64,000 bases of DNA from Arcticibacter pallidicorallinus. GTDB taxonomy: Bacteria > Bacteroidota > Bacteroidia > Sphingobacteriales > Sphingobacteriaceae. The DNA lies in NCBI RefSeq assembly GCF_003002875.1, contig NZ_PVTH01000004.1, positions 62,001 to 126,000 on the forward strand, given 5' to 3'. The notes beneath the pieces are model-generated. The model was not told the DNA's origin. It did no database searches and saw only the letters and a program-made list of their open reading frames with translations. Each line of letters begins with the position of its first letter. The first letter of the stretch is position 1. A program made the translations under genes and the position numbers. Of the stretch, positions 28,514 through 41,626 are shown piece after piece.

Positions 28514-29551
28514 ATGAAGCCAAAACCATACATAGCTGTGCTAACGCTCAGCCTAGCATTCGCCTCCTGCCAGCCGAAGGGAAAAGAATCTTTAAGAGTT
28601 TCCGACGCACCAATACCGGTCATTGCGCATCAGGTTTCGAGCACTGAAGGCACTTCCACCCTGCCACTTAGCGGCAACGTCGAAGGATACACAACAGTCC
28701 GTCTCGGTTTTATGGTGGCCGGCAAAATCAACTTCATCTCCAATCAGGAGGGTCAAAAAGTCGAAAAGGGGCAGTTGCTTTCAAGTCTTGACCCAACAAG
28801 TTATCAAATTGCAAAGGCGCAGGCCGACATACAGGTCAACCAAATCAAGGATGAATATCAGCGGATTAAGCTCATGTTTGAGCGCAATAGCGTAAGTCAG
28901 AGCGACTTTAATAAGGTAAATTTCAACCTTCAGCAGGCTATGCAGCAACAACGGATGCAGGCGAAAAACCTGGCGGATACTCGCCTATATTCGCCCATTG
29001 CAGGTGTTTTATTAAAGAAAATGGCCGAAACAGGCGAAATCGTTGGAGTGGGAAATCCATTGTTCGTCGTATCAGATATCAGTCGCGTAAAAGTAAGTGC
29101 GTTCATCCCTGAGACGGAACTAAACAAGGTCAGGTTGGGTGAAGAGGCTAAAGTCTATATCTCATCGCTCGACAAAACCTATACAGGGAAAGTTACGGAG
29201 ATCGGTTCAGCAGCAGACGCTACCTCCCGGGCATTCACCCTGAAGGTAGACCTGGATAATCCCGGACTGCAAATAAGGCCCGGCATGATAGCTGAAGTTC
29301 TTTTCGAGAGCCGGTCAACAAATCAGATGCTGACTCTGCCCGCAGAAGCGATACTTCATGACACAGACAACCAAGCCTATGTTTTTGTCACCGACAGCGT
29401 CGGCCAAAAGGCCTACAAAAGAAACGTAACAGTCGGTCAGCTGGTCAATAATCAGGTTGAAGTGACCTCTGGAATCCAGAAAGGAGAACTGGTGGTTACC
29501 GGCGGTCAACAGAAACTATCAGAAGGCATAGCCATATCCCTGAACAAATAG
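28514..29551 (+). CDS. RND efflux periplasmic adaptor lipoprotein
   Basis: 345 residues. Lipobox FASC (Cys ~19); lipoyl-like halves LGFMVAGKINFISNQEGQKVEKGQLL and RLYSPIAGVLLKKMAETGEIVGVGN flank a short helical hairpin (QADIQVNQIKDEYQRIKLMF), followed by barrel and membrane-proximal domains. This is the membrane fusion protein linking pump and outer-membrane channel. First gene of a three-gene operon; the pump gene starts 7 bases after its stop. Confidence 0.93.
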   Translation: MKPKPYIAVLTLSLAFASCQPKGKESLRVSDAPIPVIAHQVSSTEGTSTLPLSGNVEGYTTVRLGFMVAGKINFISNQEGQKVEKGQLLSSLDPTSYQIAKAQADIQVNQIKDEYQRIKLMFERNSVSQSDFNKVNFNLQQAMQQQRMQAKNLADTRLYSPIAGVLLKKMAETGEIVGVGNPLFVVSDISRVKVSAFIPETELNKVRLGEEAKVYISSLDKTYTGKVTEIGSAADATSRAFTLKVDLDNPGLQIRPGMIAEVLFESRSTNQMLTLPAEAILHDTDNQAYVFVTDSVGQKAYKRNVTVGQLVNNQVEVTSGIQKGELVVTGGQQKLSEGIAISLNK

Positions 29552-29558
29552 AGAACTC

Positions 29559-32500
29559 ATGAACTTTATTGAAGCATCACTTAAATACAAGCAGGTAACT
29601 CTCTCTGTTCTATTGCTATTATTTGCAGTCGGCATTAATTCACTGCTTAATATGCCCCGGCGCGAAGACCCCAGGATCACTGTCAGACAGGGTCTGGTAA
29701 TTGCGTACTACCCCGGAGCTAATGCAGCGCAGGTTGAAGATCAGGTTACCAGAAAACTGGAGCAATACCTTTTCCAGTTTGAAGAGGTCCGCAAAGACAA
29801 AACCTATTCTACCACGCAGGACGGAATGGTCGTCGTAAATGTGGAACTTGGCGAGAAAGTTCGTGAGCCGGATGTATTCTGGAGCAAACTGCGCCATCAG
29901 CTCCTTCTGGCGCGGCAAATTGATTTGCCCCCCGGCGTCAAAGGTCCGATAGTAAACTCCGATTTCGGAGATACCGAAGCTCTGGTCATTGGCATTGAGA
30001 GCAATACCGCTACCTATTCGGAACTGAAAAACTATGCGGAAAAAGTGGAAGATTATATCAGGAGCGTTAAATCCGTATCCAAGATAAAACGCCTCGGCGA
30101 ACAGAAAGAACAGATTCAGGTAACCTCCGGATCTGAAAAGCTATCCCAATATGGCGTCAGTCTCCAGCAAGTTGTTAAGGTACTGCAATCTCAGAACACC
30201 ATCAGTGCGACGGGCGACATAAAAACGGAAAACAACAATACACCGCTATATACACGTGGGTATTACAATACCGAACAGGAAATACGCAATCAAATCGTGG
30301 GCACTTCCAGATCAGGAGCCGTGTTACGCCTGGGGGATCTGACCACGGTAAAGAGAGCTTACGCGGAGCCGAGCTCCAGGACCACCGTCAACGGCAACAA
30401 AGCGCTGATTCTTACCGTCCAGATGCTGGAGGGGAACAACATCGTAAAGTTTGGTGAAGCGGTGAATGCTAAACTGTCCGAAGCCTCCGCACTGCTGCCC
30501 CCCGACGTGAAGCTTACCACGATTATCAACCAACCTCAGCTGGTTAACGAGAATATATCCCACTTCATAAAGGAGTTCTTTCTTGCTATCGTAGCCGTAG
30601 TGATCGTGGTCATTCTCCTGCTCCCATTCCGCATTGCCACTGTTGCAGCCATGGCTATCCCCATGACTATCGCCATCACTTTTGCGCTGATGCACGCTTT
30701 CGGTATAGAACTCCATCAGGTTTCGCTGGCAGCACTTATTGTCGTCCTGGGGATGGTTGTTGATGATGCTATCGTAATTGCCGATAACTATGTGGAGCTG
30801 CTGGACGAGGGCGTTGACCGCTGGACTGCCGCCTGGCGTAGCGCGACTGATCTCCTGATCCCGGTGCTTGCCGCCACCGTTACCATTATCGCTGCATTCC
30901 TCCCAATGGTTCTGCTAACGGGTGCGGTCGGCGAATTTATACAGGCGCTGCCACTTACCGTTGCTATCGCCCTTGCTTCATCGTTCCTTGTTGCCATGGT
31001 GCTTACCCCACTCTTATGCTACGTTTTTATCAAAAAGGGCCTCCATGACCACTCAGAAGTGCGGGACGAGACAAAGAAAGAATCTCTTCTCGATAAGATG
31101 CAGGAAGCCTACGATGCAGCACTTGATTGGTGCGCCAGGCGCCCTAAGTTCAGCATTTGGATGAGTATGCTCACCATACCGCTGGCGGGACTGCTCTACT
31201 TCGGTGTTATAAAACAGAAGTTCTTCCCTGCCGCAGAGCGGAATCAATTCGTTGTAGAGCTCTGGATGCCTACCGGCACAAAGCTGGAGAAAACCGAACA
31301 GGCCATCATGAAAGTGCAGCGTCTCGTCGAAAAGGATGATCGGGTCACCTCTTTCGCCACCTTCAGCGGAACCAGCGCCCCTCGGTTCTATTATAATTTC
31401 TCGCCGGAAGTACCTGTGGGTAACTATGCGCAGATTTTGATCAACACGACCACAGAGGAGACAACCGAATCGCTGTCAGCGGAACTTCAGCCACTTATCG
31501 AGCGACTTATCCCCGAAGGTATGCCGCAGGTAAAGCTCATGCAACAAGGCCAGCCATTGAAAGCGCCTGTTGAAGTGCGCATTAGTGGCGATGACCTCAA
31601 TACACTCAAGAAACTGGGTAATCAAGTGCAGGACATTCTCAAAAATGCCCCCGGAAGCGCGATGGTAAGAAGCGATTTTCATGAAGACCATTATGGTATC
31701 AGCATCAAGCTTCGCAGTGAGGCCGGCCGGCTTGGCTTCACTACCGAAAGTATATCTAAAATGGTCTACACCGGCTTTTCCGGGGCCCCCGTTTCTACCA
31801 TGTACGAAGGCAGTAATCCCTTGGAGATCGTTCTACGTCTGGAAGAAGATGAGCGCAGAAACTTTACAGATCTTCAGAACATCTATCTGGAATCACCTGT
31901 AACCGGAGCACGCATCCCTTTAAGGCAAATAGCGGATATAAGTCCGGAATGGCAGACTGGTAAACTGATGAGAAGAAACGGGGTCAGAACCCTCACGGTC
32001 CAAAGTGAAACACAACACGATGTACTTCCCTCAGAACTACTGAACAGCGTAAAGACAGAGATCAACAACCTACAGCTTCCCGTTGGATATCAAATTGATT
32101 ATGGTGGCGAGTTTGCTAATAAGCAGGAGACTTTCAGTCAGATGATTATTGTGCTGCTGGTCAGTCTTGTTCTGATCTTCTTTATTCTGCTTATACAGTT
32201 CAGAAACCTCAAAGAAGCAGGTATCATTATGTTAACCATACCTATGAGCTTGTTTGGAGCATTATTCGGTTTGTTTATTACAGGCAACACTTTTGGATTT
32301 ACCGCTTTTGTGGGGCTCATCAGTTTATCAGGGATAGTAGTGCGCAACGCCATTATACTCATCGATCACACCAACGATCTTTTGCATAGCGGCCTGGACA
32401 TTCGCAATGCTGCCCTGTTGTCAGGAAAGCGCCGCCTTCGTCCGATATTCCTTACAGCCATGGCCGCAGCAATCGGAGTTCTGCCGATGATTATATCCGG

Positions 32501-32663
32501 CTCGCCTATGTGGAGCCCCCTGGCCAGCGTTATTTCTGTTGGGGTGATCTGGAGCATGGTCATGGCGCTCCTTACTGTTCCGGTGATGTATATCAGCTGG
32601 ATTAAACCTGAAGACAAGTTCGACGCAATCAGTCTGAAAAAGGAAGAACAACATGAAAAGTAA
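29559..32663 (+). CDS. RND efflux inner-membrane pump
   Basis: 1034 residues, full AcrB/CzcA-superfamily length. First helix QVTLSVLLLLFAVGINSLLNM, PRREDPRITVRQGLV, two large periplasmic loops, and helix 4 with GMVVDDAIVIADNYVELLDEG carrying the proton-relay aspartates, mirrored in the second half by SGIVVRNAIILIDH. Hydrophobe/multidrug (HAE-3-like) class is more likely than metal class, as no metal-binding methionine cluster is evident. Substrate unknown. The end overlaps the TolC gene by 11 bases. Confidence 0.94.
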   Translation: MNFIEASLKYKQVTLSVLLLLFAVGINSLLNMPRREDPRITVRQGLVIAYYPGANAAQVEDQVTRKLEQYLFQFEEVRKDKTYSTTQDGMVVVNVELGEKVREPDVFWSKLRHQLLLARQIDLPPGVKGPIVNSDFGDTEALVIGIESNTATYSELKNYAEKVEDYIRSVKSVSKIKRLGEQKEQIQVTSGSEKLSQYGVSLQQVVKVLQSQNTISATGDIKTENNNTPLYTRGYYNTEQEIRNQIVGTSRSGAVLRLGDLTTVKRAYAEPSSRTTVNGNKALILTVQMLEGNNIVKFGEAVNAKLSEASALLPPDVKLTTIINQPQLVNENISHFIKEFFLAIVAVVIVVILLLPFRIATVAAMAIPMTIAITFALMHAFGIELHQVSLAALIVVLGMVVDDAIVIADNYVELLDEGVDRWTAAWRSATDLLIPVLAATVTIIAAFLPMVLLTGAVGEFIQALPLTVAIALASSFLVAMVLTPLLCYVFIKKGLHDHSEVRDETKKESLLDKMQEAYDAALDWCARRPKFSIWMSMLTIPLAGLLYFGVIKQKFFPAAERNQFVVELWMPTGTKLEKTEQAIMKVQRLVEKDDRVTSFATFSGTSAPRFYYNFSPEVPVGNYAQILINTTTEETTESLSAELQPLIERLIPEGMPQVKLMQQGQPLKAPVEVRISGDDLNTLKKLGNQVQDILKNAPGSAMVRSDFHEDHYGISIKLRSEAGRLGFTTESISKMVYTGFSGAPVSTMYEGSNPLEIVLRLEEDERRNFTDLQNIYLESPVTGARIPLRQIADISPEWQTGKLMRRNGVRTLTVQSETQHDVLPSELLNSVKTEINNLQLPVGYQIDYGGEFANKQETFSQMIIVLLVSLVLIFFILLIQFRNLKEAGIIMLTIPMSLFGALFGLFITGNTFGFTAFVGLISLSGIVVRNAIILIDHTNDLLHSGLDIRNAALLSGKRRLRPIFLTAMAAAIGVLPMIISGSPMWSPLASVISVGVIWSMVMALLTVPVMYISWIKPEDKFDAISLKKEEQHEK

Positions 32664-34011
32664 GCACATCATACATTGCATCGCGGCACTATTGCTGGTT
32701 ACGCTTTCAGAAAGACCGGCCCTGGCCCAGCAGCAGACATTGACACTTCAGCAAGCGGTTGACGCTGCGCTGGCGAATAATCATCTGCTCAAAGCCAAAT
32801 CACTACAGATTGAAGAGAAGAAAGCAAAGGTCAAAGAAGATGCAATCAAAAAATATCCGGCCGTTACCCTGAACTCTACATGGCAGTATAACGCCAACAT
32901 TGGTGAGCTGGTCATTCCCCGGGGCTCCTTTGCCGCACTGCCTCTTAATGCCAGCACGGTTATACAACTTCCCGACGCGGACAGGTCTTTCGAGCTTGGT
33001 AGACATCAAAACTTTAATGCCGGGGCTACGATTTATCAGCCGCTCACCCATCAGCCAAAGATCCAAACCGGCCTGGAAGTTGGCAAAACAGATATTCTGA
33101 TTGCAGCCCAGGAAAAAAGGAAAGCTGCACTGCAAATTGAGCAGGCTGTAGAAAAGCTTTACTTTGGAATACTGATAAACAGCAGGAAAGAAGATGAACT
33201 TAAAGCGAAACTTGAGCTGTCAAAGTTGCGACTGTATGATGTAGAAAGTGCTCTATTATCAGGAAAAGCCATCCATCTCAGCAAAGAAGGACTGCAGGCA
33301 AGCCGGGCAGATGAGGAGCAGGAATTACTGAAGCTGATCATCCAGCGCGAAGACTATGCTGCAGACCTAAGGCGTCTTACGGGGATCGATGTATTGAAGT
33401 TTAACCTGAATCCGATTGATATCAACCCGAGCCAGCCTGAGGAAATGCCCGACTACCAGTCCTCAGCACTTTCAGCAAATGCCGACCTTAGTATAGCAGA
33501 ACTCACAGTAAACAAAACGAGACTTGCCTTAAAAGCCGCCAGGCAGAATTATCTGCCCGAGGTAGGAATAATCGCAGGCTATACTTATCAGCAAGGAAAT
33601 ATCCTATACCCTACCAATAATCCTTTTGCAGGACTCAACTTTAAATGGAACATTCAGGATCTCTTTGCTAATAAACAGGTGCTCAACCAGCGCTCACTAC
33701 AACTGCAGCAGGCAAAAGAAAACGAAGCAAATGCGCTCGAGCAACTACAGGCTGATGTGGAGAAAGCGGTAAGAAAAATCAGCCAGGCCGAGGCGCTGGT
33801 TAACGCCGCACAAAAAGTATTGAATTTCAGAAGGCAAGAGCTGAAAGTCCAGCTCGATAAACAAGCTGCCGGCTTAAACGTTCTTGCTGACGTATTGAGT
33901 ACCCGCTCTACCGTGGCTAAGGCCGAAGCTGATCTTTACGGGGCACTGCTAAACTACAGGCTTGCTCAGTCGGAACTTAATACGTTAACCAAAGGAGAGA
34001 CTCTGCGGTAA
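32653..34011 (+). CDS. TolC-family outer-membrane efflux channel
   Basis: 452 residues: signal peptide ending ALAQQ, two tandem outer-membrane-factor repeats of long helices (LTLQQAVDAALANNHLLKAKSLQ; LSIAELTVNKTRLALKAARQNYLPEVGIIAGYTYQ). It completes the tripartite pump; start overlaps the pump gene end (11 bases), showing translational coupling. It is convergent with the FAD oxidoreductase gene, only 5 bases apart and with no terminator seen between them. Confidence 0.93.
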   Translation: MKSKHIIHCIAALLLVTLSERPALAQQQTLTLQQAVDAALANNHLLKAKSLQIEEKKAKVKEDAIKKYPAVTLNSTWQYNANIGELVIPRGSFAALPLNASTVIQLPDADRSFELGRHQNFNAGATIYQPLTHQPKIQTGLEVGKTDILIAAQEKRKAALQIEQAVEKLYFGILINSRKEDELKAKLELSKLRLYDVESALLSGKAIHLSKEGLQASRADEEQELLKLIIQREDYAADLRRLTGIDVLKFNLNPIDINPSQPEEMPDYQSSALSANADLSIAELTVNKTRLALKAARQNYLPEVGIIAGYTYQQGNILYPTNNPFAGLNFKWNIQDLFANKQVLNQRSLQLQQAKENEANALEQLQADVEKAVRKISQAEALVNAAQKVLNFRRQELKVQLDKQAAGLNVLADVLSTRSTVAKAEADLYGALLNYRLAQSELNTLTKGETLR

Positions 34012-34016
34012 AGTAA

Positions 34017-35144
34017 TCAGAACGGCCTGCCATGTGTCCTGGACATTAAGGCTGGAATCGCTGAGGGAACGCCAGCCATGGCGCCCAGCACGAGCTCAGA
34101 GAGCAGAGGTCTTCCAAACAAACGCTGAATACCTCTGCCCACTTTCAAACGAAAAGCGAATTCCTGGCGCCAGCTATCCATGTACTCGTGCTCGAGCTGC
34201 ACCCGGATCTTCTCGTTTATTCCATCCTTACACAGGCGTATAATATGACCCGACAAAATCTTTGCCGAATGAAAGGCTATGGCCATACCGTTGCCGCAAA
34301 GCGGAGCAATCATCCCAGCCGTATCACCACACATCAGGATATGTCTGTCTACGAGTGTCTTCCGTTCAAAGGCAATTTCGTTAATACTCTCCGGCCTGTC
34401 CCAAACAAACTCTGCGCGTTCAAAAATCCTCTTCAGAACAGGATTCTTCATCAAGACCTCCTGCTCCATCGCCGGAATGGAACCATAGGTTCGAAGATGT
34501 CTGTTCTCGGTTAGATAACAGAGGCAAAAAAGATCTTCCTCGATCTTGTTGAAGCCACAGTACCCGCCGTCGAAATTGTCCAGATGAATGGTATCGTGTG
34601 AAAAGTCACCCCTCACGAAATATTTTACAGCCATATAAGGGCTACGCCTATAAAAAAACGGGCGCATCAACTTCTGGTCGAGGTTCGAACGCTTACCAAA
34701 GGAGCCGATCACGAGATCTGCCTCAAGCTCGCCTGCGGCGATCGTGATCTTAATCTTCCCCCCACTATAGAGCACATCATTAACTTTCTCACCTTCAACA
34801 ATATGAACACCATCAATTAAAGCCATCTTGTATAAAGTATGATCCAGTCGAAATCTACTCAGTCCGAATCCGCCCAGATCAAGCGCAGCACTTAGTGTCC
34901 TTCCACTCGGCGAACTCAGCGCCAGTTTACTGATACGGGAAGACCCCAGTTGTTCCGGAACAATACCCAGCGCCTTGAGAAAAGGCAGCACTTCGTTACT
35001 TACATACTCTCCACAAACCTTATGAAAGGGATAAGTTTTCCGCTCGATCAGCGTGACTGGAAAACCCGAACGAGCCAGCAGTATGGCGTTGGTCAGCCCC
35101 GCCAAACCACCTCCTATGATACAGATAGAGGGCTTTTGTTTCAT
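34017..35144 (-). CDS. FAD-dependent oxidoreductase of the type III PKS cluster
   Basis: 375 residues from ATG 35144 (MKQKPSICIIGGGLAGLTNA); this ATG overlaps the upstream TGA as ATGA. FAD motifs: GGGLAG (11-16), VTLIERKTYPFHKVCGEYVS (31-49) as in geranylgeranyl-reductase and aromatic hydroxylase relatives, and MCGDTAGMIAPLCGNGMA (271-288). In the Streptomyces srs pathway a flavoprotein (SrsC) hydroxylates methylated alkylresorcinol to a quinone; a similar step, or reduction of a prenyl chain, is inferred here. Third gene of the minus-strand operon. Confidence 0.82.
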   Translation of the reverse strand: MKQKPSICIIGGGLAGLTNAILLARSGFPVTLIERKTYPFHKVCGEYVSNEVLPFLKALGIVPEQLGSSRISKLALSSPSGRTLSAALDLGGFGLSRFRLDHTLYKMALIDGVHIVEGEKVNDVLYSGGKIKITIAAGELEADLVIGSFGKRSNLDQKLMRPFFYRRSPYMAVKYFVRGDFSHDTIHLDNFDGGYCGFNKIEEDLFCLCYLTENRHLRTYGSIPAMEQEVLMKNPVLKRIFERAEFVWDRPESINEIAFERKTLVDRHILMCGDTAGMIAPLCGNGMAIAFHSAKILSGHIIRLCKDGINEKIRVQLEHEYMDSWRQEFAFRLKVGRGIQRLFGRPLLSELVLGAMAGVPSAIPALMSRTHGRPF

Positions 35145-35797
35145 TTGTAAATGATTACCTGCCACCTGAAAGCCCACATCCATTTGATTGTAAAGAGACT
35201 GAAACCTGCGCGCCTAATCAGATTCTCCAGCTCAGCCCTTCTGAAGCTGCGCAAAACGGATATTTTGCTATCATGTTTCACCATGGGAGATTTGGAAAAC
35301 AGTCCTGTCAGCACCCCTATAGCATGATAGGCGAACCAATGCCGGTGCAGATCGTTGATGATGACGGCTTTCTTTGCAGAATGAACCATCTTCCTGATCA
35401 GAACAATCCATTGTTCATCATCGAAATGATGGGTGAACAGACTGCTGATCACGACATCAAACTCAGCATCGTCGAATTCATGTTCCAGCACATCGGCATG
35501 CCGGAATTCCATATTTTTAAATGCACTATTTCGCTTGGTGGCGAATTCCACTGCGGCGGCGGTAGCGTCTATGCCGATAAGCCGCAAGTCAAGGCTCTGG
35601 CGCCTGAAATATCCTTGTAAGACCCTCAAGCTGTCGCCTCCACCACAACCCCAGTCGCTGACCGTGTCGCCGTTCTGTAGCTTCAGCTGCCTAAAGGCGT
35701 CATAAAATACGCTGAAACCACCCAGAAGTTTATTGATTACTTCCAATTCCTTCAACACCGGGTCAAGCTCCCGATGGTCGAGGGCAAAATTATCCAT
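35141..35797 (-). CDS. SAM-dependent methyltransferase of the type III PKS cluster
   Basis: 218 residues from ATG 35797 (MDNFALDHRELDPVLKELEV). This start has a perfect AAGGAGG Shine-Dalgarno sequence 7 bases upstream, rare in this genome; an ATG at 35836 would add 13 residues and overlap the PKS gene. Class I methyltransferase motifs: VSDWGCGGGDSL (~46-57), LIGIDATAAAVEFA, ADVLEHEFDDAEFDVV; then NDLHRHWFAYHAIG. It probably methylates the polyketide product on O or C. It is unlike SrsB, which belongs to the membrane ICMT family. Confidence 0.82.
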   Translation of the reverse strand: MDNFALDHRELDPVLKELEVINKLLGGFSVFYDAFRQLKLQNGDTVSDWGCGGGDSLRVLQGYFRRQSLDLRLIGIDATAAAVEFATKRNSAFKNMEFRHADVLEHEFDDAEFDVVISSLFTHHFDDEQWIVLIRKMVHSAKKAVIINDLHRHWFAYHAIGVLTGLFSKSPMVKHDSKISVLRSFRRAELENLIRRAGFSLFTIKWMWAFRWQVIIYK

Positions 35798-35803
35798 AAT
35801 TTC

Positions 35804-35810
35804 CACCTCC
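35804..35810 (-). promoter_or_regulatory. Strong Shine-Dalgarno sequence deciding the methyltransferase start
   Basis: On the minus strand AAGGAGG is followed by TGGAAATT-type spacing and the ATG at 35797. Such perfect sites are uncommon in Bacteroidota, and it supports the shorter start. Confidence 0.6.
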
Positions 35811-35828
35811 TTGCTTCGCCGACTGAAA

Positions 35829-36932
35829 TCAGGCATAGCTTAACACCATACTTTCAAAGGTTAAACCCGGACCGAAAGCGAAGCTCAGCACCTGTTGCTC
35901 GCGTTTTTCTGCTTTTAGCTTTCTACTCAACTCATCCAAAACGAACAGAACTGTTGTAGAAGACATATTGCCAAAATCACGTAATACCTTATAAGCGTGC
36001 GCATTCTGCTCTGCATTTAAACTAAAGACTTCGTCACAGACCTCCAATATCCTCCTGCCACCGGGGTGGATGGCAAACTGGCTGATGTCATCGAACGCTA
36101 TGTTTGCTTTCTTGAGAAGCTTGTCTGCAACGTCGCGGATACCCGACTTGATCTGCTTGGCAACCTGATTCGTGAGCTGCATCTCATAACCGAAATCACC
36201 AATTTTCCAGGCCATTTCCTTTCTGGCCTTGGTAATAACCTCCGTATAAAACGATTTGATCTTAAAAAGCTGCACATCTGTGGCATCTTCGTGCTGAACC
36301 AGAACTGCCGAGGCCCCATCAGCAAAAAGGGAATTTGCCAGCCAGTTGTCCAGCGTATTCTCTTTCTGGAAATGAAGTGTACAAAGTTCTACATCCACAA
36401 TCAACACCTTTGCATCCGGCTGAGCCCTGCAGATATAGTCGGCAACTTTTAACGCATTAAACGCACCGTAGCAGCCCATAAAATTGATACAGGTGCGCTC
36501 AACATGAGGGTTAAGCCGCAGGCTTTCTACGATCTCAATATCAAGTCCGGGAGCATACATGCCTGTACAGCTTACGGTTATCAAGTGGGTGATATCCTGC
36601 GCATTAAATAAAATTGAACCCAGGCAACTATCTACTGCACGCAGACACAGGTTGAGTGCGGTGCTTTCATAAAGATCACTTCTCTTAGAGGTGGTCGGGA
36701 ATGGCATCAACCCATCCTCATTACCGAAAAACTCGTATTGTCCCCTATCCTTCCCGAAATCGTCAATCACGGAGTGCCGGTAGTCGATCCCCGAGACGTG
36801 GTATAACTTCTCCAAACGTCGGGAGTTATGCTCATCCAACTCATGTGCATCAATCATGAACTGGAGGATGCGATCCTGACGAAATTTGTTTACCGGATTA
36901 CTTGTGCCTATGGCCGAAATGATGCTGTTCAT
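35829..36932 (-). CDS. Type III polyketide synthase (chalcone/alkylresorcinol synthase-like)
   Basis: 367 residues from ATG 36932 (MNSIISAIGTSNPVNKF); a TTG two codons earlier is less likely. The catalytic triad is complete: Cys154 in NFMGCYGAFNAL, His289 in FAIHPGG and Asn322 in FGNMSS; the C-terminal FGPGLTFE loop matches the family's GFGPG. A homodimeric ketosynthase of this kind extends an acyl-CoA with malonyl-CoA and cyclises it to a resorcinol, pyrone or similar ring. Starter and ring type are not readable from sequence. First gene of a three-gene operon and divergent from the UbiA-type gene. Confidence 0.92.
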   Translation of the reverse strand: MNSIISAIGTSNPVNKFRQDRILQFMIDAHELDEHNSRRLEKLYHVSGIDYRHSVIDDFGKDRGQYEFFGNEDGLMPFPTTSKRSDLYESTALNLCLRAVDSCLGSILFNAQDITHLITVSCTGMYAPGLDIEIVESLRLNPHVERTCINFMGCYGAFNALKVADYICRAQPDAKVLIVDVELCTLHFQKENTLDNWLANSLFADGASAVLVQHEDATDVQLFKIKSFYTEVITKARKEMAWKIGDFGYEMQLTNQVAKQIKSGIRDVADKLLKKANIAFDDISQFAIHPGGRRILEVCDEVFSLNAEQNAHAYKVLRDFGNMSSTTVLFVLDELSRKLKAEKREQQVLSFAFGPGLTFESMVLSYA

Positions 36933-36947
36933 CTGCAATTGTTTTTT

Positions 36948-36955
36948 TAAATTTA
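36948..36955. promoter_or_regulatory. Palindromic -7-like element between divergent PKS and UbiA genes
   Basis: TAAATTTA reads the same on both strands and is one base off the TAnnTTTG consensus in each direction. It lies mid-way in the 40-base gap between the two ATG codons. Any promoter for one gene must overlap the other gene's control region or coding start. Confidence 0.35.
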
Positions 36956-36972
36956 TCTACACAGGCAGCATC

Positions 36973-37842
36973 ATGGCGGAATTACATATCAGGTCAACCC
37001 TAACGCATTTGCGACTTCCTTTCTCCCTGCTGTTACTCCCTGTGTATCTGTTTGCCCTGAGCGAAGTACCTAATCCTAACACTTACCATGCCCTGGTAGT
37101 TTTTATCGTATTGCATTTGTTCATTTACCCGGCGAGTAACGGTTTCAACAGCTTCTTTGATAAGGACGATGGCAGCATCGGATTGCTGAAAAATCCGCCG
37201 AAAGTCAACAGCAATCTATTTTACACTTCAATTATCCTAGAGTGGACCGGCGTGCTGCTTGCCTTGCTGGTCAGCATGGAGTTTGCTCTTTGCGCCATCA
37301 TCTACAATTCGTTCTCCAAAGCCTACAGCCATCCTTCGGTCAGGATAAAGAAATATCCCTTGCTGAGCTTCTTCATTGTCTTCGTGTTTCAGGGGCTTTT
37401 TATCTACTACAGCTGTTATCGGGCACTGGCTCCGGAGGGTACACCCGAAACACATTCCGTCTGGATAGCAGGGCTTGTCTGCTCGTGTCTGATCGGAGCC
37501 TCCTACCCGCTAACGCAGATCTATCAGCATGACGAAGATGCACGACGGGGAGATCGTACCCTGAGCATGCTGCTGGGGGTACGCGGTTCGTTTATATTCG
37601 CAGGGATTCTTTTCCTGTTAGGCAGTGCCCTCCTGTACTACTATTGGTTTAGCTGCAAGCTGTCGGAAAATTTCGGAGTCTATCTCATCTGTCTGACACC
37701 CGCGCTGATCTATTTTTTCCACTGGTTCTATAACTGCGTTAGAGATCCTGCCAAGGCTTCCTTCGGCCGTGCAACAGTAATGACGCTTGTTAGCGGCCTG
37801 TTCATGCTGGTATATTTCGGCTGGCTTCTGCTTTTTCGTTAA
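36973..37842 (+). CDS. UbiA-family membrane prenyltransferase-like protein
   Basis: 289 residues from ATG 36973 (MAELHIRSTLTHLRLPFSLL); about eight or nine helices. The first Asp-rich motif is altered to NGFNSFFDKD (Asn56, Asn59, Asp63; the family has NDxxDxxxD), while the second is intact in spirit: YQHDEDARRGDRT. UbiA enzymes attach a prenyl chain to an aromatic acceptor with Mg2+-diphosphate chemistry. Divergent from the type III PKS operon, so it probably prenylates or otherwise processes that product. A non-prenylating UbiA homologue is possible because of the changed motif. Confidence 0.75.
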   Translation: MAELHIRSTLTHLRLPFSLLLLPVYLFALSEVPNPNTYHALVVFIVLHLFIYPASNGFNSFFDKDDGSIGLLKNPPKVNSNLFYTSIILEWTGVLLALLVSMEFALCAIIYNSFSKAYSHPSVRIKKYPLLSFFIVFVFQGLFIYYSCYRALAPEGTPETHSVWIAGLVCSCLIGASYPLTQIYQHDEDARRGDRTLSMLLGVRGSFIFAGILFLLGSALLYYYWFSCKLSENFGVYLICLTPALIYFFHWFYNCVRDPAKASFGRATVMTLVSGLFMLVYFGWLLLFR

Positions 37843-41047: not shown

Positions 41048-41626
41048 TTATTTAGATTTTCCGAATTCGCCGTCAGCCTGTATCCATACTTCATCACTAA
41101 TCATCGGAGCTGGAAACTTGGCGCCTATGCCGAAGTCTGAACGCTTAATGCTTCCTGTCGCCTGGAACCCTGCTACTTCTGCGTTGTTGGCTGCCGGGTT
41201 TTTTCCGACTCCCCTAAACAGCATATCCATAGTAACCGGTTTCGTTACGCCGTGGAGCGTAAGGTCGCCGGTAACTTTAAATTTGTCTTTACCGGCAGAT
41301 TTTATCGATGTGCTTTTGAAAGTTAGCTTTGGATACTGAGCCGCATCAAAGAAATCTGCACTCTTCAGGTGATTGTCTCTCATCTCTACGGCGGTATTGA
41401 TGGAATTCACGTCGGCACTAAGGGTTATTACCGCGTCGGACATGTCGGGCTTTGAATAAGATACCGTGGCATCAAACTTGTCAAAGGCACCGCTAATGTC
41501 AGAGATACCCAGGTGCGTCACCTTAAATCCGAGCCGGGAGTGCATGGGATCTGACTTCCAGTTCATTTGAGCGAAACTTGTCGCAGATGCTGCTATCATA
41601 AACAGCAACAGGATCATTTTTTTCAT
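41048..41626 (-). CDS. YceI family periplasmic protein
   Basis: 192 residues: signal peptide (MKKMILLLFMIAASATSFAQ) then a lipocalin-like YceI barrel with WKSDPMHSRLGFKVTHLGIS, a long FDATVSYSKPDMSDAVITLS strand pair, FDAAQYPKLTFKSTSI and DLTLHGVTKPVTMDM. Members bind polyisoprenoid chains such as octaprenyl phenols. It lies directly upstream of the FMN reductase gene. A link to the quinone-like pathway 4 kb away is only a thought, not shown. Confidence 0.92.
   Translation of the reverse strand: MKKMILLLFMIAASATSFAQMNWKSDPMHSRLGFKVTHLGISDISGAFDKFDATVSYSKPDMSDAVITLSADVNSINTAVEMRDNHLKSADFFDAAQYPKLTFKSTSIKSAGKDKFKVTGDLTLHGVTKPVTMDMLFRGVGKNPAANNAEVAGFQATGSIKRSDFGIGAKFPAPMISDEVWIQADGEFGKSK

Follow-up and report, generated by a model that had tools for sequence, protein, structure and literature searches.

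Within the window, a stretch of 64,000 nucleotides from Arcticibacter pallidicorallinus (contig NZ_PVTH01000004.1, positions 62,001 to 126,000), four neighboring genes encode a type III polyketide synthase (PKS), a class I S-adenosylmethionine (SAM) methyltransferase, a flavin adenine dinucleotide (FAD) enzyme and a membrane protein of the UbiA superfamily (Table 1). The grouping of the four genes is far beyond chance, their linkage is conserved, and the PKS and this UbiA subfamily are coupled in occurrence even where their genes are unlinked. We propose, with a probability of about 0.58, that the four genes build a prenylated, oxidized and methylated membrane phenolic lipid of the alkylresorcinol type.

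Table 1. Features of the locus, in window coordinates (GGR, geranylgeranyl reductase).
Feature	Coordinates	Strand	Remarks
FAD enzyme	34017..35144	-	375 aa; flavin monooxygenase/halogenase/GGR-like fold; probable ring hydroxylase
Class I SAM methyltransferase	35141..35836	-	231 aa; assigned by Pfam
Type III PKS	35829..36932	-	367 aa; C154/H289/N322; probable 5-alkylresorcinol synthase
Divergent intergenic region	36933..36972		40 bases; presumed site of both promoters
UbiA-superfamily membrane transferase	36973..37842	+	289 aa; divergent from PKS; probable prenyltransferase with altered Asp motifs
YceI-family protein gene	41048..41626	-	PF04264, 169 bits; possible, unproven associate

The three minus-strand genes are transcribed in the order PKS, methyltransferase, FAD enzyme, with overlapping ends: the last 8 bases of the PKS gene overlap the methyltransferase start, and the ATG of the FAD enzyme overlaps the methyltransferase stop as ATGA. 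An alternative in-frame ATG at 35183 would give a FAD enzyme of 388 aa, but the ATGA start was favored, since the FAD reading frames of two Mucilaginibacter loci (L037 and L057) are also 375 aa long. All four products matched Pfam models over cut-off: Chal_sti_synt_N (80.4 bits) and Chal_sti_synt_C (84.2 bits) for the PKS, Methyltransf_25 (54.0 bits) for the methyltransferase, PF01040 (62.6 bits) for the UbiA protein, and Trp_halogenase (34.7 bits) and FAD_binding_3 (31.8 bits) for the FAD enzyme. An earlier note on this DNA had named the same four genes, with the ATGA overlap, a distance of 40 bases between UbiA and PKS, and a complete Cys-His-Asn triad in the PKS. The gene calls and Pfam matches confirmed these points, and the triad was located by alignment to Pks18 (1TED) and Steely1 (2H84).

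The pairing of the PKS with the UbiA protein was followed in three samples that share some genomes, using cut-offs that were set after the lists had been seen. In the class sample (294 other Bacteroidia genomes; PKS at E ≤ 1e-50, UbiA at E ≤ 1e-45), the PKS was found in 53 genomes (18%) and the UbiA in 54. Both were present in 52, the PKS alone in one, the UbiA alone in two and neither in 239 (one-sided Fisher p 3e-54, ignoring shared ancestry). The UbiA gene was within 2 kb of the PKS in 48 of the 53 PKS-bearing genomes; over all 53, it was upstream and co-directional in 32 (gap 8–430 bases), divergent in 13, downstream in 3 and unlinked in 5. In the PKS-only genome, G276, UbiA fragments with stops adjoin the PKS. 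In one UbiA-only genome, G431, the PKS beside UbiA is cut by the contig end (L256); the other, G479, is an assembly of 61% completeness, in which a YceI gene adjoins UbiA. Remoter PKS-like matches (4e-32 to 4e-45) occurred in 18 class genomes, without such a UbiA except in G479, and five genomes had weak UbiA matches only (E 6e-35 to 6e-17) and no PKS match.

The relatives sample (59 other genomes; PKS at E ≤ 1e-70, UbiA at E ≤ 1e-60) had both proteins in the same 20 genomes, including the Arcticibacter genomes G001 and G005 (the same as loci L066 and L067), where the UbiA is on another contig. Four genomes had PKS-like matches of 1e-31 to 1e-45 without UbiA, and G046 had a weak UbiA match alone. 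In G012 and G036, UbiA is downstream of the PKS in one operon. In the phylum sample (198 genomes including that of A. pallidicorallinus itself), PKS at E ≤ 1e-85 and UbiA at E ≤ 1e-50 were found in the same 18 of the 197 other genomes; this PKS cut-off is not transferable to the class sample, in which PKSs down to 7e-53 pair with UbiA. The PKSs of family f42 (1e-67 to 1e-84) form a separate tree clade and occur without this UbiA subfamily. Distant UbiA matches (E 1e-8 to 1e-30) were listed at another place in 17 of the 25 f42 genomes with a PKS (e.g., L163–L178); outside f42, the sole similarly weak match in the phylum sample was one in f36, for which no PKS was listed.

We considered the possibility that the UbiA protein is a menaquinone or other housekeeping enzyme whose place beside the PKS is accidental. 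Proteins of the UbiA type are very widespread, and each of the 14 control genomes has at least one. However, this subfamily is missing from 239 of the 241 class genomes without this PKS, and the protein had no match to the MenA, UbiA-equivalog or EboC (NF035940) models at E ≤ 0.01. Furthermore, the genome has other UbiA genes, for a heme O synthase (TIGR01473, 231 bits) and a UbiA-like polyprenyltransferase (TIGR01475, 257 bits), both over cut-off. A menaquinone or heme O role was rejected on the class co-occurrence and on these other genes, and an accidental neighbor is extremely improbable. The lack of an EboC match likewise left an EboC/Ubi-297 identity without support.

The PKS, methyltransferase and FAD enzyme also occur together over a wider range. 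The named loci are the best 80 of 163 relatives (GTDB loci), with up to 6 kb fetched on each side of the PKS; close relatives are over-represented and some loci end at contig ends. Of these 80, 77 have the methyltransferase and 69 have both it and the FAD enzyme. There was no nearby UbiA in 11, six of which have one elsewhere in the genome, while five, all Mucilaginibacter, do not. In the phylum sample, the PKS was present in 70 genomes at E ≤ 1e-40; the 70 loci of the 69 other genomes had methyltransferase and FAD enzyme in 54, the methyltransferase alone in 4, the FAD enzyme alone in 1 and neither in 11 (a methyltransferase near the PKS in 58). Thus, the concern that homologs might routinely lack these neighbors does not apply to UbiA within the class; across the phylum, UbiA is often missing, but methyltransferase and FAD enzyme stay.

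Sixteen plasmid regions were hand-picked from 182 matching records; 15 are annotated, and one Streptomyces region is not. Nine of the 15 show a PKS match whose near neighbors include a methyltransferase and a protein that binds FAD or NAD (Paludisphaera, Psychrobacter, two Deinococcus, Roseomonas, Microvirga, Methylobacterium, Paracoccus and Microbacterium). In Psychrobacter, methyltransferase and FAD genes run opposite to the PKS, and the Microbacterium record has no annotation for the PKS itself. The Novosphingobium plasmid has PKS and FAD genes adjacent and a methyltransferase nearby in the other direction, and the trio was missing in the Rhizobium, Tsukamurella and three Streptomyces plasmid regions. 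The Paludisphaera operon (L112; order methyltransferase, FAD enzyme, PKS) scored with the same three profiles (177, 221 and 387 bits). The Psychrobacter urativorans plasmid NZ_CP012711.1 (L113) carries a Bacteroidia-clade PKS (46% identity) near recombinase and transposase-related genes. The UbiA protein had no match in 72,556 plasmid records.

With both Chal_sti_synt domains and the triad present, the protein is a type III PKS, and it is the sole PF00195 match in its genome at E ≤ 0.001. H289 and N322 are identical in 157 of 157 aligned PKS proteins, and FMGC is at least 95% conserved. Met251 (151 of 157) may occupy the position of CHS Phe265, where it was put by eye using a CHS segment; for the HidC clade, the available part of PMC8086630 reports Met at this position. 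By analogy, the enzyme is probably a 5-alkylresorcinol synthase. Alternatively, it might yield alkyl alpha-pyrones, making the pathway product a decorated pyrone, in line with its closest PDB sequence, Pks18 (1TED, 1.9e-44), an alkylpyrone synthase. This match is distant, however, and does not predict the ring outcome, and the characterized PKSs from methyltransferase/FAD operons gave resorcinols, according to the accessible text of PMC10896814. The FAD enzyme, the methyltransferase and the UbiA protein would also suit a phenol, and we consider a pyrone product quite unlikely.

The methyltransferase scored 160 bits against NF004851/PRK06202, below the model cut-off of 243. The FAD enzyme, in its AlphaFold2 model (mean predicted local distance difference test (pLDDT) 90.2), has the overall fold of a class A flavin monooxygenase with GxGxxG and GD motifs, a fold common to halogenases and GGR-like proteins. 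In VIA-align, where rows within 1 Z of each other are tied, it scored Z 34.8–35.4 to PltA, ChlB4 and 3-hydroxybenzoate 6-hydroxylase, the last of which ranks level with the flavin halogenases, and 31.4 to the GGR-like protein 3OZ2. Tryptophan-type flavin halogenases have a WxWxIP motif, which was missing in 133 of 133 aligned FAD proteins, and this type was rejected.

A further possibility was that the FAD enzyme is of the GGR type and saturates the prenyl tail, with no ring hydroxylation. Among NCBIfam models, it matched TIGR02032 (GG-red-SF) best, at 86.6 bits, the DG fingerprint, a feature of class A flavin monooxygenases, is replaced by GSFGKRS, and the agq products (see below) carry a dihydrogeranyl group, by their published name. 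However, the TIGR02032 score is far below the curated cut-off of 158.8, and halogenases and hydroxylases are above 3OZ2 by fold. Moreover, in L199–L207, L212 and L213, the FAD gene remains together with PKS and methyltransferase where this UbiA is missing, which shows that the FAD step is independent of UbiA. A GGR role is therefore unlikely, and the enzyme is probably a ring hydroxylase. The motif types of the FAD proteins differ between loci: a CGE type was found in 68 of 69 proteins from named loci and in 15 of 15 from L145–L161, L212 and L213 (Bacteroidia), and a GDAAH-type monooxygenase in 29 of 30 from L162–L198 (f42 and f40) and in both Deinococcus plasmid copies. The nine proteins of L199–L207 match neither pattern. 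Since two FAD subfamilies fill one slot of the cassette, we infer that they may share a ring-oxidation step.

The UbiA protein belongs to the UbiA superfamily by fold as well as by its Pfam match. The best matches of its AlphaFold2 model (mean pLDDT 94.6) were UbiA-type lipid synthases of archaea and the UbiA protein of A. fulgidus (template modeling (TM) score 0.62–0.70; 0.68–0.70 for A. fulgidus UbiA, 4TQ4). A profile search of PDB sequences gave no match at E ≤ 1, and two matches to zinc transporters, obtained with the single sequence (E 0.006), were taken as chance. The canonical Asp motifs of UbiA proteins are described as NDxxDxxxD and DxxxD in the part of PMC7839719 available to us. These were not both present in the window protein, which has NSFFDKDDG (N59-S-F-F-D63-K-D65-D-G67-S) and QHDED (Q185-H-D-E188-D189) instead. 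The altered positions, the last Asp of motif 1 and the first of motif 2, were seen by comparison with the heme O synthase and the UbiA-like polyprenyltransferase of the same genome. Residues N59, S60, D63, D65 and S68 and T181, Q182, Y184, Q185, E188 and D189 were kept in 45 of 45 UbiA proteins; the QH(x)ED stretch is slightly variable in a wider set of 62 rows.

The altered motifs suggested another possibility, that the core is the same but the UbiA protein uses a non-prenyl donor, as do UbiA relatives that transfer phosphoribosyl groups, or a non-polyketide acceptor serving the same process. The alterations are conserved in 45 of 45 proteins, and the membrane phosphoribosyltransferases 8J8J and 8J8K rank 15–16 by fold. 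However, the prenyltransferases 6M31, 7BPU, 4TQ4 and UBIAD1 rank higher, and the tight coupling to an enzyme that makes a phenol speaks for an aromatic acceptor. We regard this alternative as rather unlikely, and prenylation of the polyketide remains the preferred reading.

In composition, the nearest known systems are the hid (hierridin) operon of cyanobacteria, in which the available text describes a type III PKS, a methyltransferase and a FAD oxidoreductase in one short cluster (PMC8086630), and its planctomycete counterpart. Adjacent, co-directional genes for these three enzymes, which define such operons, are also found at the window locus. The order is methyltransferase, FAD enzyme, PKS in the hid and planctomycete operons, whereas in Bacteroidia loci it is PKS, methyltransferase, FAD enzyme or PKS, FAD enzyme, methyltransferase. 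UbiA is outside these operons as described in the accessible sections, although a prenyltransferase is reported for one hid-like cluster, in Raphidiopsis. Planctomycete PKSs from such operons yielded pentadecyl- and heptadecylresorcinols (C15/C17), and co-expression of the G. maris methyltransferase and FAD genes gave one added methyl, probably on carbon, as reported in PMC10896814.

The earlier note had taken Streptomyces srs as the nearest precedent; by its account, srs combines a type III PKS with a methyltransferase and a flavin hydroxylase, without UbiA. This needs correction in favor of the hid/planctomycete operon. The soluble methyltransferase that it had offered as a distinguishing mark is not one, because those operons already consist of PKS, methyltransferase and FAD enzyme. 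Its reading of one functional unit for a likely lipidic phenol held up, and co-occurrence and linkage make UbiA a real partner. The alkylresorcinols of SrsA are converted to alkylquinones (PMC10896814, in part).

All four enzyme types occur in one cluster in agqA-D of Actinoplanes missouriensis, from another phylum, the likeness being one of composition. The genes agqB, agqC and agqD are presumably those of a UbiA-type prenyltransferase, a methyltransferase and a monooxygenase. In Actinoplanes, the alkylresorcinol of the type III PKS is then prenylated and hydroxylated, and the products are named alkyl-O-dihydrogeranyl-methoxyhydroquinones, as far as given in the consulted sections of PMC7692728 and PMC10896814; PMC4044012 also deals with the cluster. 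The UbiA-like enzyme Ubi-297/EboC of marine Flavobacteria farnesylates aromatic acceptors in vitro; it belongs to the conserved Bacteroidota ebo operon, for which the available part of PMC9235831 names no type III PKS. A Micromonospora losA region lists UbiA and methyltransferase genes (PMC7587189). A search of the open-access literature found no paper on the PKS–UbiA pair of Bacteroidia, nor a product or function for it. In the portion seen of PMC9100364, clusters with a type III PKS rank among the four most frequent types in Bacteroidota, and PMC12565237 and PMC8448689 each list one such cluster in a genome. In the text available of the three, word searches gave no mention of UbiA, or of prenylation in the first two (“prenyl” was not searched in PMC8448689), and the accessible part of a Pedobacter survey (PMC12181424) had nothing on type III, T3PKS, UbiA, prenyl or resorcinol.

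Seen together with these systems, the pathway might start with the PKS loading a long-chain fatty acyl thioester, adding malonyl units and closing the ring to a 5-alkylresorcinol. The FAD enzyme would then hydroxylate the ring to a hydroquinone-type nucleus, and the methyltransferase would methylate it, on either oxygen or carbon; these first product, oxidation and methylation steps are modeled on the relatives. Finally, the membrane UbiA protein would add an isoprenoid chain to the ring or an oxygen, as its predicted fold and the agq cluster suggest. The end product would be a prenylated alkyl(hydro)quinone with two tails and potential redox activity, the order of steps being a proposal.

Several observations weigh against this pathway. 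Among the 45 UbiA proteins, the last Asp position of NDxxDxxxD (67) is taken by G (30), K (6), E (4), D (4) or N (1), and all 45 have Gln in place of the first Asp of DxxxD (185), so that a prenyl diphosphate donor is not certain. The nearest PDB sequence of the PKS is that of a pyrone synthase, the FAD enzyme lacks the DG fingerprint, and the role of the planctomycete FAD gene is left open in the available part of PMC10896814. The likeness to HidA-C and AgqA-D was judged by gene composition, and in the PKS tree, the planctomycete row (L112) is excluded from the Bacteroidia clade and has a long branch (1.52). That clade does include the Psychrobacter plasmid PKS, yet no plasmid record has such a UbiA. 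Finally, Mucilaginibacter L030, L037, L043, L057 and L058 hold the PKS, with no UbiA match in the genome at E ≤ 1e-5; two of these five are metagenome-assembled genomes, completeness not stated, and L057 is M. galii. Another Mucilaginibacter locus, L027, does have this UbiA. Since UbiA could be lost in these five, its step is probably late and dispensable, and the pathway can end before it.

The PKS tree (123 rows) and the UbiA tree were quick searches with SH-like approximate likelihood-ratio test (SH-aLRT) supports only and several long branches flagged. The window PKS is in an 11-row group of Pedobacter and Sphingobacteriales (support 100), inside a 56-row clade (98) of Bacteroidota and the Psychrobacter plasmid copy, and the Arcticibacter rows group, weakly supported (82–88), with those of Mucilaginibacter. 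In the UbiA tree, the window protein is with Pedobacter (8-row set, 95), and the UbiA that is unlinked in Arcticibacter groups with Mucilaginibacter (7 rows, support 100). The two trees are concordant on the window and on Arcticibacter, although some forks are weak. Such a PKS is missing from three of the five congeners. The simple reading of these sequences would be exchange of the gene set within the family. The calcineurin-like neighbor has good matches in the congeners G002 (59% identity) and G004 (51%), but for the TolC neighbor the five congeners gave no match at E ≤ 1e-30, leaving no insertion site to compare.

The TolC-type and FAD genes converge tail to tail, and the calcineurin-like gene is next after UbiA. 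Adaptor-, RND-pump- (both by eye) and TolC-type genes fill window positions 28514–34011, and, judged by these neighbors, the TolC-type gene is the end of an RND-type operon. The TolC query had no match in 111 loci of relatives, and the calcineurin profile matched two reading frames there, each in a copy of the locus from this same genome. In many Sphingobacteriaceae loci, the cassette is followed by genes for a histidine kinase and a PhoU_div (DUF47) protein (e.g., L006:10476-12263, L027:8945-10728). DUF47 was found in 52 loci, a further gene of one family in about 50, and a MATE-type gene in 27; the recurrent histidine kinase, DUF47 and further gene were read as synteny.

A YceI gene is directly upstream of the PKS in 26 of the 80 named loci (among L027–L062, e.g., L027:5392-5925). 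In 21, it lies between UbiA and PKS; the other five are Mucilaginibacter loci without UbiA. The Mucilaginibacter loci L030, L037, L043, L057 and L058 keep the order YceI, PKS, FAD enzyme, methyltransferase, with a 5'-nucleotidase-like gene (by eye) between FAD and methyltransferase genes in L037 and L057. The window YceI gene is not adjacent to the cassette, but 3.2 kb from UbiA. YceI proteins are isoprenoid/lipid binders, and this one is a possible carrier of the lipid product. A lipid/isoprenoid-binding gene is reported in a five-gene PKS operon of ‘S. ferox’ in the part of PMC10896814 available.

This kind of pathway is already known from other phyla. The novelty first suggested for the product narrows to a UbiA subfamily that has altered motifs and is paired with the PKS across the class. 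This subfamily offers material for mechanistic work, and four small genes in several cultivable genera would allow a clean genetic test of polyketide-derived prenylated quinones in Bacteroidia. It is doubtful, but conceivable, that the product is a membrane quinone of a new class, with a polyketide-derived ring carrying alkyl and isoprenoid tails and built without chorismate, which a large part of Bacteroidia would keep as a redox or envelope lipid beside the usual quinone, the UbiA protein holding its donor via a changed metal site. The class-wide keeping of the PKS–UbiA pair itself suggests that the product is a physiological lipid and not only a strain-specific antibiotic.

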